Positions 23,571 to 36,494 of a stretch of 41,822 bases of DNA are shown piece by piece. Origin of the DNA: Paludibacteraceae bacterium (lineage in GTDB: Bacteria > Bacteroidota > Bacteroidia > Bacteroidales > Paludibacteraceae); the NCBI GenBank assembly GCA_017483945.1, contig JAFUUE010000037.1:1-41822 (forward strand), given 5' to 3'. Position 1 is the stretch's first letter. Each line of letters opens with the position of its first letter. The translations under genes were made by a program, and so were the position numbers. The notes under the pieces are model-generated. The model did not search any database. It saw nothing but the letters and a program-made list of their open reading frames with translations, and was not told the origin of the DNA.

Positions 23571-24155
23571 TCACCGAAAACCCGCCAATTTGTGCGTCTG
23601 CAGAGAGAGCCTCCAATGGGGATGGGCACGGATATAATCCACCGTTCGTGCAATGCTGTCCCGAGTCCGCTCGGCATCGGCATACCCACACGGCTGCAGC
23701 CAATGATGACGCGCGTCTATCACCTTATATATAGCCTCCACGTCCTGCCCCGTATAGACGACCTTCAGTTCGTCGGCACGGTCTATCCGCAGCGCCGCGC
23801 CCTCCTTGGGCGAACAGGTCACCCAGTCGATACCCGCCGGCAACGGACGGGTGCCGTTCGTCTCAATAGCCACCTCGAACCCTGCCCGGTGCAGGCTGTC
23901 CGTCAGCGCCTCGTCCACCTGCAGGCTCGGTTCGCCGCCCGTCAGCACCACCAACATACCTGCCGCCTGCGGCACCAAAGTGCAGGCCGCGGCCACTATC
24001 TCCGCCGACGTCATCTCCTTGTACTGAGCAAAATCCGTGTCGCAGAACGCACAACGCAGGTTGCATCCGCTCATGCGAACGAACACCGCCGCGCGCCCCG
24101 TATAGAACCCCTCGCCCTGCAGCGAGTAGAACATCTCATTGACCCGGTACGTCAT
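23571..24155 (-). CDS. queE: 7-carboxy-7-deazaguanine synthase QueE
   Basis: Radical-SAM enzyme that turns 6-carboxy-tetrahydropterin into 7-carboxy-7-deazaguanine, third step to preQ0/queuosine. From ATG 24155 it has 194 residues: substrate segment RVNEMFYSLQGEG, the CxxxCxxC cluster motif CNLRCAFC (31-38), LTGGEPSLQ and ETNGTRPLP. Homologues begin close to the RVNEMF segment, so 24155 is preferred; an ATG at 24173 would add six residues and overlap queD by 11 bases. It is the last gene of queF-queC-queD-queE. Confidence 0.95.
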   Translation of the reverse strand: MTYRVNEMFYSLQGEGFYTGRAAVFVRMSGCNLRCAFCDTDFAQYKEMTSAEIVAAACTLVPQAAGMLVVLTGGEPSLQVDEALTDSLHRAGFEVAIETNGTRPLPAGIDWVTCSPKEGAALRIDRADELKVVYTGQDVEAIYKVIDARHHWLQPCGYADAERTRDSIARTVDYIRAHPHWRLSLQTHKLAGFR

Positions 24156-24162
24156 AGCCCGT

Positions 24163-24522
24163 TCAGCGCTCATAGATAGCGATATTGCCCTCCGACTCCT
24201 GCACGCTGACCTTGTAGCAGTTGGTCACGTGGTCGCATATCCACCGCGCGATATTCTCCGCGCTGGGATTGATATAACCAGCCTCGCCGGGCGCGATGCC
24301 GGGGTTGAGCACGTCGTTGATATACTGGTGGTCGAACGTGTCCTTGACGATACGCTTGATATGCGTGAAGTCAGTGACCATGCCGTCGGCGTTCAGTTCC
24401 TCGGCCTTGCAATAGACGACGATAATCCAGTTATGCCCATGCAGCGCCTCGCACTTGCTCTCGTAACTCAGGTGCAGGTTATGCGCCGCCGATATCTCTA
24501 TGCGTTTCTCTACGTAATACAT
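24163..24522 (-). CDS. queD: 6-carboxy-5,6,7,8-tetrahydropterin synthase QueD
   Basis: 119 residues, a PTPS-fold enzyme converting dihydroneopterin triphosphate to 6-carboxy-tetrahydropterin. Zinc ligands His14, His28 and His30 (AAHNLH, LHGHNW) and catalytic Cys24 (ESKCEALHGH) are present, with a closing QESEGNIAIYE. It is one base from queC. Confidence 0.95.
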   Translation of the reverse strand: MYYVEKRIEISAAHNLHLSYESKCEALHGHNWIIVVYCKAEELNADGMVTDFTHIKRIVKDTFDHQYINDVLNPGIAPGEAGYINPSAENIARWICDHVTNCYKVSVQESEGNIAIYER

Positions 24523-24523
24523 G

Positions 24524-25177
24524 TCAGTCCTCGTAAATAGTTGTGTCTGTGATGCCTGCCTCGCGCAGCGCCTCGCGTCGCTCGACGCACGTGCCGCACT
24601 TGCCGCAGTGGTGTTCGCCGCCTTTGTAGCAGCTCCATGTCCGGCTGTAGTCGATACCCAACGACACCCCGCGCCGTGCTATATCCGCCTTCGTCAGGTG
24701 GGTATAAGGGGTGAGCAACGACACTCCGTTGTACGTCCCAGCCTGCATCGTCTTATCCATCGCCGCCACAAACTCGGGACGGCAGTCGGGGTAGATACTA
24801 TGGTCGCCCGAATGATTAGCCAGCATCACATACTGCAGCCCCATGTCCTCCGCCACACCCGTGGCCACCGCCAGCATGATACCGTTCCGGAACGGCACCA
24901 CCGTGCTGCGCATGTTAGCCTCCGCATAACTGCCCTCCGGCACGGCCTCACTGCCCGCCAGAAGCGACGAGTGCAGGTACTGTTTGATGAAGTCCAGTCG
25001 GATGATACGATGCGGGATACCCAACCGTCCGCAATGCTCCGCGGCAAAGGCTAACTCCCTGTCATTGTGATTGCTGCCATAGTGGAACGACAGCGCCAGC
25101 GCAATACGCTCACGATACTCATACAGCATCGTCGTCGAGTCCAGTCCGCCCGACAGCACTAAGATTGCGTCCTTCAT
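24524..25177 (-). CDS. queC: 7-cyano-7-deazaguanine (preQ0) synthase QueC
   Basis: 217 residues. ATP-pyrophosphatase P-loop SGGLDSTT (9-16) activates the carboxyl group of 7-carboxy-7-deazaguanine for nitrile formation. The C-terminal zinc-binding cysteines are all present ([15 protein letters not shown]). [17 protein letters not shown] is typical of the family. Its ATG overlaps the queF stop in an ATGA. Confidence 0.97.
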
Positions 25178-25641
25178 CGCCGTGCCATTTGTGCCAACAT
25201 ACGGGCATGAACCATCTCCTCATGTGCCTCGTCGCCCATGTTGGCGAAAGGCACAATGCTGATACCGCCGCGCGGGTTAAAATCACCCTGCACCTCGATA
25301 TAGCGCGGCTCCATCAGCCGATACAGGTCCTTCATGATGATATTCACGCAATCCTCGTGAAAATCACCATGGTTACGGAACGAGAACAAGTACAGCTTCA
25401 GCGACTTGCTCTCCACCATCCGCTCGCGCGGGATATAACGGATGATGATGTGCCCGAAGTCCGGCTGACCCGTCTTCGGACAAAGGGTGGTAAACTCCGG
25501 GCAATCCAACGTCACGAGGTACTCGTGCTCTGGATGCTTGTTCACAAAGGTCTCCAATAAACGGGGATCATAATCGGTGGGATACTGCGTATGCTGGTTC
25601 CCAAGCAGGGTCACACCCTGCAATTCAGTGTCTGTTCGCAT
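25174..25641 (-). CDS. queF: NADPH-dependent preQ0 reductase QueF
   Basis: 155 residues from ATG 25641, the short unimodular (YkvM-type) class. Catalytic Cys54 in [12 protein letters not shown], Asp61, and the QueF motif ESKSLKLY (77-84) that binds NADPH are visible. It reduces the nitrile of preQ0 to preQ1 before insertion into tRNA. An in-frame ATG at 25671 would add ten residues with no family similarity. tgt and queA/queG are not in the window. Confidence 0.95.
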
Positions 25642-25660
25642 GTCTGTTTTCAGTATTTTA

Positions 25661-25678
25661 CGTCCCCTCACGAGGACG
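25661..25678 (-). other. Hairpin with GTGA loop before queF
   Basis: On the minus strand CGTCCTC-GTGA-GGGGACG forms a seven-pair stem (one T-G pair) with a GNRA-type loop, 20 bases before the queF start. It does not match a preQ1 riboswitch consensus that I know. Confidence 0.35.
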
Positions 25679-25714
25679 GGTTACGGGGTGGAAAAACAAT
25701 AGCACCCCTGTCTA

Positions 25715-27001
25715 TTATGCTTTCTTTTGTTTGGCTACCGATGCCGCAGCCTTGGCCTCCAGCGCCGTTATCTCACGCTGTATCGACTGCGGGATGGCCT
25801 CTCCGTCGCGCAACACGCACTCGTGGCACTTCATCTCGCGCGAGTACATACGACCCACGCAGTAGTTCGAACGCGTGCAACCGGCGTGGTAATGCGGGTT
25901 CTTCTCCACATGATGCACGAACTCCGGGTCTTTTATCAGCACGTGCGCCAGTTGGAACAACTCGAAGCCCTCCTGCATAATCTGCTCGCAGTTATCACCC
26001 GACTGCACACCGCCCACGTATATCAGCGGCACATCCTGTATCTCCTGCTGGAAGCGCTTCGCCTGCTCCATGAAGTACAACTCACGGAACGGCTGCGTCG
26101 GCATCATGATCGGACCCACGCCCGGCAGGTGCAACGCCGCCTTCAGCCACCACAACGAACGCATCGGCATGTAATGCGCCAGCGTACGCACAGGCATCGC
26201 TCCGCCCAATATGGTCATCGGCGAACGGCTCACCGTGCCGCCGGACAGCACGATACCATGTACTTTATGCTTCGCTATCTCCTCCGCGATGCGGATACCT
26301 TCCTCGATATCCGAACCGTGCCAGCAGTCGTCCCACATATTCGTCTTCACCACCACCGCCATGTCGTCCTTCGCATGACGCATCACCTCGTCCAGCACCT
26401 CGTTCAGGAAACGCACACGGTTCTCGAACGAACCGCCGTACTCGTCGTGACGATGGTTGGTGCGCGGGCTGATGAACTGCGAAATCAGGTACGCATGACC
26501 CGCGTGTATCTCCACGCAGTCAAAGCCCGCCTCGCGGCAGAAGTCAACCGCCTCGCCGAACTTACGCGTCAACTCATGTATCTCCTCACGCTTCAGCGCG
26601 CGGTGCAACGTCGGGCTGTACAGGTTGAATCCGTACGACGCGCTCACCGGCATGCAGTGGCATGTGCTGTAGTGCGTCATGTTGCCGCAGTGACCCAACT
26701 GGATACTCGCTTTCGCACCCGCCGCATGCACCGCAGCCGTCAGTTTCTTCAACCCCGGCAACGCCTCCTCGCGCACATACAACTGACCGTCGAAGCTCAC
26801 ACCGCTCAGGTCCACTGCACAATACGCCACAGTCGTCATGCCCACTCCGCCGCGGGCTACACTCACATGGTAGTCCTCCAGCATCTGAGACGGCACATTG
26901 CCCGTACACATATTCTCAAACGCAGCCGAACGGATAAAACGGTTGCGCAACACAATCGGCCCTAACTGATAGGGCGTAAATAACTTACTCTTCTCTGCCA
27001 T
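25715..27001 (-). CDS. Old Yellow Enzyme-family NADH:flavin oxidoreductase, candidate steroid/bile-acid 5-beta-reductase
   Basis: 428 residues. An FMN-binding TIM barrel of the Old Yellow Enzyme class is clear: LFTPYQLGPIVLRNRF near the start, IQLGHCG, the substrate/FMN segment EIHAGHAYLISQFISPRTN followed by DEYGGSFENRVRF, and the FMN-phosphate loop near IYVGGVQS. The C-terminal part has Cys at CTRSNYC and CHEC, reminiscent of the 4Fe-4S site of 2,4-dienoyl-CoA reductase/BaiH-like members, but no long FAD/NADH-binding domain follows. One base separates it from the steroid 5-alpha-reductase-like gene, which suggests a joint role on 3-oxo-delta4 steroids. Exact substrate is inference. Confidence 0.85.
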   Translation of the reverse strand: MAEKSKLFTPYQLGPIVLRNRFIRSAAFENMCTGNVPSQMLEDYHVSVARGGVGMTTVAYCAVDLSGVSFDGQLYVREEALPGLKKLTAAVHAAGAKASIQLGHCGNMTHYSTCHCMPVSASYGFNLYSPTLHRALKREEIHELTRKFGEAVDFCREAGFDCVEIHAGHAYLISQFISPRTNHRHDEYGGSFENRVRFLNEVLDEVMRHAKDDMAVVVKTNMWDDCWHGSDIEEGIRIAEEIAKHKVHGIVLSGGTVSRSPMTILGGAMPVRTLAHYMPMRSLWWLKAALHLPGVGPIMMPTQPFRELYFMEQAKRFQQEIQDVPLIYVGGVQSGDNCEQIMQEGFELFQLAHVLIKDPEFVHHVEKNPHYHAGCTRSNYCVGRMYSREMKCHECVLRDGEAIPQSIQREITALEAKAAASVAKQKKA

Positions 27002-27002
27002 A

Positions 27003-27779
27003 CTAATAAATAAATGGGACCACCCGCTTCAGGTTGCGACCGGGGAACTCCTCCGGGAACTCCGCGGCATACTTGTGCCAGATGCTGTTCGCACGAGGCA
27101 CCAGGTTGGCGCACGTGAACCAGAAGAACACAAATCCCGCCCAACTCCACGTCAGCACGGCCCAACCGGCCCACTCCAGTATCTCACCGAAGTAGTTCGC
27201 CGACGTCACGTAGTTGTACATACCCCCCTTCGGCAGGTAATGCTTGCTGTCGCCCGGCTTGCGCAGATGGCGGATGATATAATCGCTGTGGATATTGATT
27301 CCCATGCCGCACAGGAACATCAGCGTACCCAGTATGAAACGCCAGTCCGTCAGCCATGCCGACGTATAAAGCTCCTGATACATAGGCTCCTCCGCCGCAC
27401 GCACGAACAACCAGTAACCCTGTATGTAACCGTTCGTCAGGTTGAATACGATACTCAGTGCCATTATCACTAACGGCATCTTGCTGTTGCCCTTCATCAG
27501 CAGCGGAAACACAAACGAACGCTGAAAATAATGCAACTCAAACAGCAGGAAAAACACCAGATAAGGCAGAGTGAAATGCAACTCCGAACTGCCCCACATG
27601 AACAGCATCACGAAAAACACAGGACACTCCATCAGCATCCAGCCTATCTTGTTGTTAATCGCAGGCCCCCACTTCTCCGAACGCATCTTGCCGTAGCCCG
27701 CATCCACATGATACAACGCCACAAACACCAAAAAACCTATCAGGGCTACTATGAATAGCAAAGACGAAAATTGTTCCAT
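27003..27779 (-). CDS. 3-oxo-5-alpha-steroid 4-dehydrogenase (steroid 5-alpha-reductase) family membrane protein
   Basis: 258 residues with six to seven predicted membrane helices. The conserved C-terminal half of the SRD5A family is plain: GMGINIHSDYIIRHLRKPG, then GGMYNYVTSANYFGEILEWAGWAVL, NLVPRANSIWHKY...FPEEFPGRNLKRVVPFIY. By family it reduces the delta4 bond of a 3-oxo steroid with NADPH to the 5-alpha form in the membrane. Length matches human SRD5A enzymes. It is promoter-proximal, followed after one base by the OYE-family gene. Other related families (DUF1295, isoprenylcysteine methyltransferase-like) are less likely given the YFGE and C-terminal motifs. Confidence 0.85.
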   Translation of the reverse strand: MEQFSSLLFIVALIGFLVFVALYHVDAGYGKMRSEKWGPAINNKIGWMLMECPVFFVMLFMWGSSELHFTLPYLVFFLLFELHYFQRSFVFPLLMKGNSKMPLVIMALSIVFNLTNGYIQGYWLFVRAAEEPMYQELYTSAWLTDWRFILGTLMFLCGMGINIHSDYIIRHLRKPGDSKHYLPKGGMYNYVTSANYFGEILEWAGWAVLTWSWAGFVFFWFTCANLVPRANSIWHKYAAEFPEEFPGRNLKRVVPFIY

Positions 27780-27848
27780 ATCAGTCTCTTATATAAAGAT
27801 AATTATTCTAATGCATACGAGTCCGGCCACAAAAGACCAAACTCGATG

Positions 27849-27879
27849 CAAAGATACGAAAATAAATCCGTATAGACAA
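27849..27879 (-). promoter_or_regulatory. Promoter of the reductase pair
   Basis: -7 TATCTTTG at 27856-27849 and -33 TTG at 27879-27877 within TTTGTCTATACGG, spacer 20 bp. The leader is about 65 nt. Confidence 0.65.
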
Positions 27880-27899
27880 ATAAATCATAAAAAAAGTAC

Positions 27900-28838
27900 C
27901 TATTTTCCGCCTTTTTGGCACAAAAACAGGCCGCCGATAATAATTCCGATGCCTACCAACTTCAGCCACGGCAGGTGCTCACCCATCAGCGACCACATCA
28001 ATAGCGCCGTGAACACAGGACGGATATTATTGAACGCATTCGCGCGCGTCACGCCTATCTCGCGTACCGAATAGCAGAACAGCATGAACGCCGCCACCGA
28101 GCAGAACACCGCCAGGTAACACACCGCACCTATCGCACGATGCCACGCCGCCGCATCGGCCTGACTGCCCGCCATGCCCCCGTCGGTCAGCAACCACAGC
28201 GGCACAAACAGCAGCAGCGACACAAACTGCGTGCACAACACCACCGTCAGCGTGTTGTAGTGCGACGGAATACGACGGAGCATAATCGTGTACATCACCG
28301 CCGAACTCACCGCCAAGAACGCCCACAACAGACCCTTCGGGTCGCCTATCGCAAAACGCGACGAACCCGCCGTCACTAACAGCACCACGCCCGCCGTGGA
28401 CACCACGATTCCCGCTATCGTCGCCCAACTCACACGCTCACGCAGCAGCACTACAGCAAACAGCGGAGCCAGTATCGGACTCGTCGAAAGCAGCGTCTCC
28501 GCCACCGTCGGAGACGTCAACGCCCTGTAACACAGCGTCTCTAACAGAAAATACAGAAACGGCTGGAAGAACCCCGTCAGCACAAACAGCGGCCAGTCCC
28601 GCAGCGAGGGCATCTCCAGCGCCAGACCCGTCTCCCGACCCGCACCGCGACGACGGTCTATCACGCGGCACACCAGACCCGTCAACAGCATCAGCGTCAC
28701 CGCCATACTGAAGCGTAACACAATCAGCATCAGCGGTGTAAACACCACCAACGCCTGCTTTATCGCTATCCCCGCCGCCGACCAGAACAGCATCGCCAAA
28801 ACTATCGCCACATACGGCACATATCGTTTCATATTCAC
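27900..28838 (-). CDS. EamA-family (DMT superfamily) transporter
   Basis: 312 residues with ten predicted helices in two homologous EamA halves (YVAIVLAMLFWSAAGIAIKQAL at the start of the first; the second begins near GLLWAFLAVSSAVMYTIML). Such inner-membrane carriers export or import small metabolites; substrate unknown. The end ...GIIIGGLFLCQKGGK is typical. A second Met at codon 3 could also start. Its likely promoter lies some 270 bases upstream, with repeats in between. Confidence 0.85.
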   Translation of the reverse strand: MNMKRYVPYVAIVLAMLFWSAAGIAIKQALVVFTPLMLIVLRFSMAVTLMLLTGLVCRVIDRRRGAGRETGLALEMPSLRDWPLFVLTGFFQPFLYFLLETLCYRALTSPTVAETLLSTSPILAPLFAVVLLRERVSWATIAGIVVSTAGVVLLVTAGSSRFAIGDPKGLLWAFLAVSSAVMYTIMLRRIPSHYNTLTVVLCTQFVSLLLFVPLWLLTDGGMAGSQADAAAWHRAIGAVCYLAVFCSVAAFMLFCYSVREIGVTRANAFNNIRPVFTALLMWSLMGEHLPWLKLVGIGIIIGGLFLCQKGGK

Positions 28839-36446: not shown

Positions 36447-36476
36447 CAAATGTACAAAATATTTTGCATATATCAA
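36447..36476 (-). promoter_or_regulatory. Promoter of ssb
   Basis: -7 TACATTTG at 36454-36447, -33 TTG at 36476-36474, spacer 19 bp. It overlaps the divergent promoter at 36464-36494, so the two may compete. Confidence 0.6.
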
Positions 36477-36494
36477 AATTTCTTCGTAACTTTG
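36464..36494 (+). promoter_or_regulatory. Promoter of the nuclease/phosphatase gene
   Basis: -33 TTG at 36464-36466 within TTTTGCATATATC, -7 TAACTTTG at 36487-36494, spacer 20 bp. It sets the start at 36522. Confidence 0.8.

Follow-up and report, generated by a model that had tools for sequence, protein, structure and literature searches.

The stretch of DNA analysed here (the window) comprises 41,822 nucleotides and represents one entire contig (C46) of a Paludibacteraceae assembly of 1.99 Mb in 93 contigs that is 89% complete. On its minus strand, a gene for an SRD5A-like integral membrane reductase of 258 aa (putative 5-alpha-reductase; 27003-27779) is followed by a gene for an Old Yellow Enzyme (OYE)-family protein of 428 aa, which consists of an FMN barrel and a Cys-rich tail (putative 5-beta-reductase; 25715-27001). 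Both products scored above the curated cut-offs of their families, PF02544 (Steroid_dh; 7.1e-43, 146.6 bits against a gathering score of 22.6) and PF00724 (Oxidored_FMN; 2.5e-57), and were the sole matches to these families in the assembly at E 0.001. The stop codon of the SRD5A gene and the start codon of the OYE gene are separated by exactly one base (27002). A Bacteroidota-type promoter match, TTTG-N20-TATCTTTG, at 27849-27880 (minus strand) is located 70-101 bases upstream of the SRD5A start codon. The pattern TTTG-N20-TAnnTTTG, which we take to be the Bacteroidota promoter consensus, was matched five times in the window (0.14 matches expected from 100 shuffles), and a sigma-70 scan of positions 25500-28100 returned three sites, none of them on the minus strand. 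The coordinates, strand, single-base spacing and common promoter proposed in an earlier note on this DNA were thus confirmed, and the YFGE...PF signature that it described at the C terminus of the SRD5A-like product was found as well. The pair lies between queuosine-type genes and an EamA transporter gene. The queuosine-type cluster (QueF, QueC, PTPS/QueD-like and radical SAM; 23571-25671) comes immediately after the pair in the same orientation. Two divergent, overlapping Bacteroidota-type promoter matches are situated on opposite strands at 36447-36494.

The SRD5A-like product was compared with proteins of known structure (matches to E 1), among which PbSRD5A scored 195 bits, human SRD5A2 156 bits and the enoyl-CoA reductase ART-1 37 bits. 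It is therefore far nearer to steroid 5-alpha-reductases, as the earlier note had supposed, and an identity as an enoyl-CoA reductase (TECR) was ruled out on these scores. The outcome named in that note as refuting its proposal, closest characterised relatives among enoyl-lipid or quinone reductases, thus did not arise for this product. Identity over aligned columns amounted to 102/239 (43%) for PbSRD5A (7c83) and 92/231 (40%) for human SRD5A2 (7bw1). An AF2 model (pLDDT 82) predicts the seven-helix fold of both structures (TM 0.81 to 7c83 and 0.76 to 7bw1), with no other entry at E < 0.001. The SRD5A2 positions N160, D164, R171, N193, E197, R227 and Y235, presumably for the most part cofactor contacts, are also conserved in the window product, and Y178, H231 and R246 are replaced by H, I and L, respectively. 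The catalytic residues Glu57 and Tyr91 of SRD5A2, described as polarising the steroid 3-keto group in the available part of PMC7591894, correspond to E51 and Y84, and equivalents of both were found in all 136 distinct Bacteroidales sequences compared (the distinct count, some genes having been entered twice by two fetch routes). The product differs from PbSRD5A and SRD5A2 in the QEY motif, which is given as a signature of SRD5A enzymes in the accessible text of PMC7815742: Gln56 of SRD5A2 is M50 here, and MEY instead of QEY was present in 136/136 distinct Bacteroidales sequences, environmental types included. This distribution ruled out a Q-to-M change that represents a loss of function peculiar to the window protein. 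Judged by its sequence, the product is classed as an SRD5A homologue of the MEY type seen in Bacteroidales rather than as a QEY member in the strict sense.

The OYE product combines the barrel with a Cys tail putatively of the Fe-S class. It contains 13 Cys, with the set in the tail kept in relatives, which bears out the earlier description of an FMN barrel with extra Cys. The nearest solved sequence is YqjM, and the closest proteins of known structure comprise ene-reductases of the general type and reductases of dienoyl- or naphthoyl-CoA. In 2-naphthoyl-CoA (6qkg) and 2,4-dienoyl-CoA (1ps9) reductases, the barrel is likewise followed by a Cys tail, and the tail of the window protein aligns with the Cys motif of 1ps9, which we take to have a 4Fe-4S role; unlike these enzymes, the window protein has Ser in place of the second Cys and no FAD/NAD half. 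In an alignment that left out the truncated L067 and contained some genes twice, the tail (residues 375-395) appeared as a degenerate Fe-S-type motif, with three of the four ligand-equivalent Cys in 21/21 rows, the second Cys replaced by S, V, T, A or K in 20/21 rows and all four Cys in one distant row. An additional C395 is found in the OYE proteins of near relatives. In the AF2 model, the tail was predicted at low confidence (pLDDT < 50 at 379-391) and its geometry was unusable.

With BaiCD and the steroid 5-beta-reductase ci2350 of Clostridium innocuum, the window protein has the OYE-type FMN barrel and the proposed reaction in common, but it differs from them in lacking the C-terminal FAD/NAD half, in its score and in the residue next to the catalytic Tyr. 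It reached 170.1 bits with the NCBIfam BaiCD model, far under the cut-off of 825, with a match that covered 3-255 of 642, and is shorter than BaiCD (428 against ~640 aa). The catalytic Tyr is Y171 here, with A170 as its neighbour, as against Y167 with N166 in ci2350 (placed through Y166 of 1ps9). Membership of the BaiCD/Clostridial 5-beta-reductase clade was ruled out by length, cut-off and Tyr-neighbour residue; the role as a 5-beta-reductase is putative and rests on gene context.

This context was followed in 61 genomes, 37 of them from the genus, in which searches for the pair and for associated short-chain dehydrogenase/reductase (SDR) genes were performed. The SRD5A and OYE genes were adjacent in 36/37 genus genomes (own included), where their matched ranges lie 6-526 bases apart. 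Among 80 named loci, an OYE gene was present in the fetched stretch of 77, and in 72 of these no more than 135 bases separate its start from the stop of SRD5A; of the three loci without it, L079 has a stretch that stops 176 bases past the SRD5A gene. Ranked by the SRD5A gene, the closest six of the named relatives are Paludibacteraceae bacteria whose genomes were assembled from samples of roe deer, red deer, reindeer and goat. In 247 Bacteroidales genomes, SRD5A was detected in 57, OYE in 44, both in 42 and an adjacent pair in 27 (all SRD5A rows and all OYE rows except the second piece of G177 counted), corresponding to a Fisher p of 3e-32 that is not corrected for relatedness. In 247 genomes taken from across the phylum, SRD5A was found at E 1e-30 in four (own included) and an OYE match at E 1e-60 in 19, of which 18 score 209-248 bits, as compared with 797 bits for the window. 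The nearness of YqjM would fit a general ene-reductase for reactive enones that is merely co-transcribed with the 5-alpha-reductase. We regard this as very unlikely, given the tight co-occurrence and adjacency of the two genes, the status of the OYE gene as the only PF00724 match in the genome at E 0.001 and the conservation of a subfamily insert and the Cys tail along with the partner.

The earlier note had stated that no hydroxysteroid dehydrogenase (HSDH) gene adjoins the pair and that the full route would need genes elsewhere. The first point is true within the window, and the second holds at the level of the SDR family, with a candidate in the same genome. In 31/37 genus genomes, an SDR gene lies downstream of the OYE gene on the same strand at a distance of up to 2.5 kb, and in 29 of those at up to 166 bases (genus rows down to 291.8 bits counted, 51 rows, with lower-scoring rows left out). 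The two best SDRs of this family in the window genome are located on contigs C37 and C57, not beside the pair. In a tree of a thinned set of 54 SDRs, which carried a long-branch warning that included W57 and L042_op2, the C37 SDR (L168:6542-7321) clustered with the operon SDRs of L003, L006, L010 and L043 and the pair-separate copy of G012 (support 100/96), making it an orthologue of operon SDRs. The C57 SDR, which sits in a glycosyltransferase/aminotransferase operon, clustered (97/88, long branches) with the second of two successive SDRs in L042, L018 and L033. The top NCBIfam match of the SDRs was mycolate reductase, far under the cut-off. For the c3-type SDR, which is found downstream in other families, no match was obtained in the window genome at E 1e-20 and weak matches only (74-83 bits) in 13/36 other genus genomes; for want of strong matches, this second SDR type was ruled out as part of the set in this genus.

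A comparable arrangement is known from gut Bacteroidota. In Parabacteroides merdae, a 5-alpha-reductase (5AR) gene is clustered with genes for a predicted 3-beta-HSDH and an NADH:flavin oxidoreductase, as described in the available passages of PMC10382948. This 5AR-5BR-3-beta-HSDH cluster, found in P. merdae and others, resembles the window in that an SRD5A-type gene adjoins an NADH:flavin oxidoreductase gene. It also includes an SDR, as do most relatives of the window (31/37), whereas the SDR of the window genome is displaced to another contig. The window pair fits the published description, on which the likeness to P. merdae rests, in agreement with the earlier comparison to such pairs; unlike the gut Bacteroidota cluster, the window lineage is often foregut-derived. 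The enzyme idea itself is considered likely: it is well supported and not new, the pathway being already known in kind.

The explanation that we favour, with moderate confidence, is that the pair is a two-gene operon that turns delta4-3-keto steroids into reduced products of either A/B ring geometry. The SRD5A-type enzyme would use NADPH to deliver a hydride to the alpha face of C5, with Glu51 and Tyr84 polarising the 3-keto group, and give flat 5-alpha steroids; the FMN enzyme would act on this bond from the beta face, by reduction or by reversible desaturation, and give bent 5-beta steroids. The SDR, whose gene is third in line in most relatives and lies on a different contig in this genome, would convert 3-keto into 3-hydroxy groups and back, which would enable the set to epimerise both C3 and C5. 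This explanation builds on the genes and their families, the conserved operon, the catalytic residues, the fold and the SDR orthologue in the same genome, from which the reactions, the stereochemistry and electron donor of the OYE enzyme and the substrate of the SDR are predicted. Against it stand the M in place of the Q of QEY throughout the Bacteroidales sequences, the departures of the OYE product from BaiCD and the Clostridial 5-beta-reductases, and the placement of the second SDR copy (C57) in a glycosyltransferase operon.

A further point, against a purely steroid role, comes from menA, which in the operon or beside the displaced SDR could point to quinone lipids. The C37 SDR gene lies directly downstream of a gene whose product (UbiA family) scores above the MenA cut-off (TIGR00751, 198.9 against 102.15); the two genes together span L168:6542-8233. 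A search of 41 genomes, 25 of them from the genus, revealed the order SRD5A-OYE-menA-SDR in G007 (C19:115053-119832) and G022 (C17:6701-10557); in G023, with a layout as in L009 (5629-7765), menA follows the OYE gene and reads in two pieces, and in G001 menA and the SDR gene are found together as in the window genome. The arrangement in the window genome thus looks like an SRD5A-OYE-menA-SDR-like operon cut between OYE and menA. In all, 5/25 genus genomes have menA associated with the pair or with the SDR. A lipid or quinone role consequently stays in play, and our confidence in the steroid operon was lowered by this result. In such a role, the main substrate of the enzymes would be a lipid enone or isoprenoid of the cell's own making (for instance a quinone or polyprenyl lipid), with steroid turnover as a side activity. 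Retention of the pair in 36/37 genus genomes suggests a core role, SRD5A3 acts on polyprenols according to the accessible part of PMC7591894, and the best NCBIfam match of the SDRs, to mycolate reductase and far under the cut-off, points the same way. We nonetheless judge a primary lipid function rather unlikely. The sequence is of the SRD5A1/2 type, far from enoyl-CoA reductase, and SRD5A is present in just 57/247 Bacteroidales. In addition, menA was located elsewhere in seven other genus genomes of the 25, and 11/25 genus genomes with the pair, four of them 96-98% complete (G008, G010, G013 and G016), gave no menA match at E 1e-20, so that the pair is independent of this menA; menA was near the pair in 1/80 named loci and 0/36 stretches from other genera.

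If steroids are reduced, their source has to be considered. By record titles, the 80 named relatives come from a foregut organ (21), carry RUG/RUI codes, which we take to denote rumen (26), come from intestine or faeces (6, including one duodenum and one isolate presumably from chicken) or have no stated source (27); for the OYE-bearing relatives, the corresponding numbers are 20, 26, 6 and 25. Where an organ was named, it was ruminant foregut in 21/27 cases. The foregut lies upstream of the bile duct, which speaks against bile acids as the main substrate. Strong bile-salt-hydrolase matches (>200 bits) were obtained in 2/37 genus genomes and weak ones (20-45 bits, above the Pfam cut-off) in nine further genus genomes, with no match in the window genome. 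These data weaken the proposal of the earlier note that the organism could switch the A/B ring geometry of host bile acids or hormones (5-beta to delta4 to 5-alpha), with HSDHs encoded elsewhere. The gene set is the same as in the gut Bacteroidota cluster, and disruption of the 5AR of P. merdae stopped the formation of allo-lithocholate, an allo-bile acid, as reported in the passages of PMC10382948 at hand. In the sheep rumen, allocholic acid increased when bile acids were added, both in vitro and in vivo (PMC11193847, in part); the same passages call bile acids 'very rare' in the unsupplemented control groups and name other species, and the word Paludibacteraceae does not occur in the text. 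What stood of the proposal is a 5-alpha-reductase-type protein encoded with an OYE protein in one operon; the OYE product lies outside the BaiCD/Clostridial clade, and the foregut sources speak against bile acids. The bile-acid and hormone switch is less well supported than the enzyme assignment and is not the reading that best suits the lineage's ecology, and on balance we hold it to be unlikely.

In this lineage, plant steroids or sterols from the diet seem no less likely than bile acids, and plant steroids are a plausible substrate of the favoured steroid operon. In the rumen, diosgenin is saturated and epimerised to epismilagenin (PMC5535167), smilagenone, smilagenin and tigogenin also arise from it (PMC10385484), and the aglycone core is not broken down by rumen bacteria (PMC8433717), each according to the part of the source available. 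Likewise, from the accessible passages, 5-beta phytostanols are abundant in herbivore faeces and made with digestive-tract bacteria (PMC6366745). Pointing the other way, a KEGG-based survey of intestinal genomes from dairy cows detected neither 3-alpha- nor 3-beta-HSDH (PMC9750977, in part). These sapogenin conversions are the reactions to be expected of a 5-alpha-reductase, a 5-beta-reductase and a 3-HSDH acting on a delta4-3-ketone. We infer from this match a link to the operon, which might underlie the conversion of steroidal sapogenins in the forestomach or, in a related version, the 5-beta phytostanols of herbivores that serve as faecal biomarkers; we offer this as a long shot. Other microbes would hydrolyse the saponins and form the delta4-3-ketone, for which a delta5-4 isomerase would also be required; the SRD5A enzyme would then give tigogenin-type (5-alpha) and the OYE enzyme smilagenin-type (5-beta) products, and the SDR would epimerise C3 to epismilagenin. 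Deposits of epismilagenin glucuronide harm the liver of grazing sheep. A search of the open-licence literature found no paper that ties the hydrogenation of sapogenins or sterols in the rumen to this operon at the gene level. If the steroid explanation is true, steroid ring-switching genes would be shared by nearly all of a genus, in a lineage that is often encountered in the forestomachs of cow, sheep, goat and deer, which should contain little bile, and would be no speciality of bile-exposed gut bacteria. Defined genes would then allow direct tests of the enzymology by which sapogenins and phytosterols are hydrogenated in the rumen, and caution would be called for in reading metagenomic 5AR/5BR genes as bile-acid genes.

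Among 36 fetched stretches from other genera, an adjacent pair was found in 16, and one or two SDR genes lay downstream in 12/16, an order that agrees with the published cluster of P. merdae; of those 12, L132 has an ORF between the pair and the SDR gene, and in L136 the SRD5A gene was placed from the genome search. A four-gene operon of SRD5A, OYE and SDRs of the c2 and c3 types occurs in L135, L138, L139, L140, L141 and L143, which belong to other families. Distant Bacteroidales SRD5A homologues (35-40% identity) are located beside a different SDR in eight stretches (L152, L154, L156, L157, L158, L160, L162 and L163). The two of these SDRs that were scanned (L152 and L158) matched the 3Beta_HSD, HpnA and SdmB models with scores that stayed under the NCBIfam cut-offs, which suggests a different, steroid- or hopanoid-like pairing.
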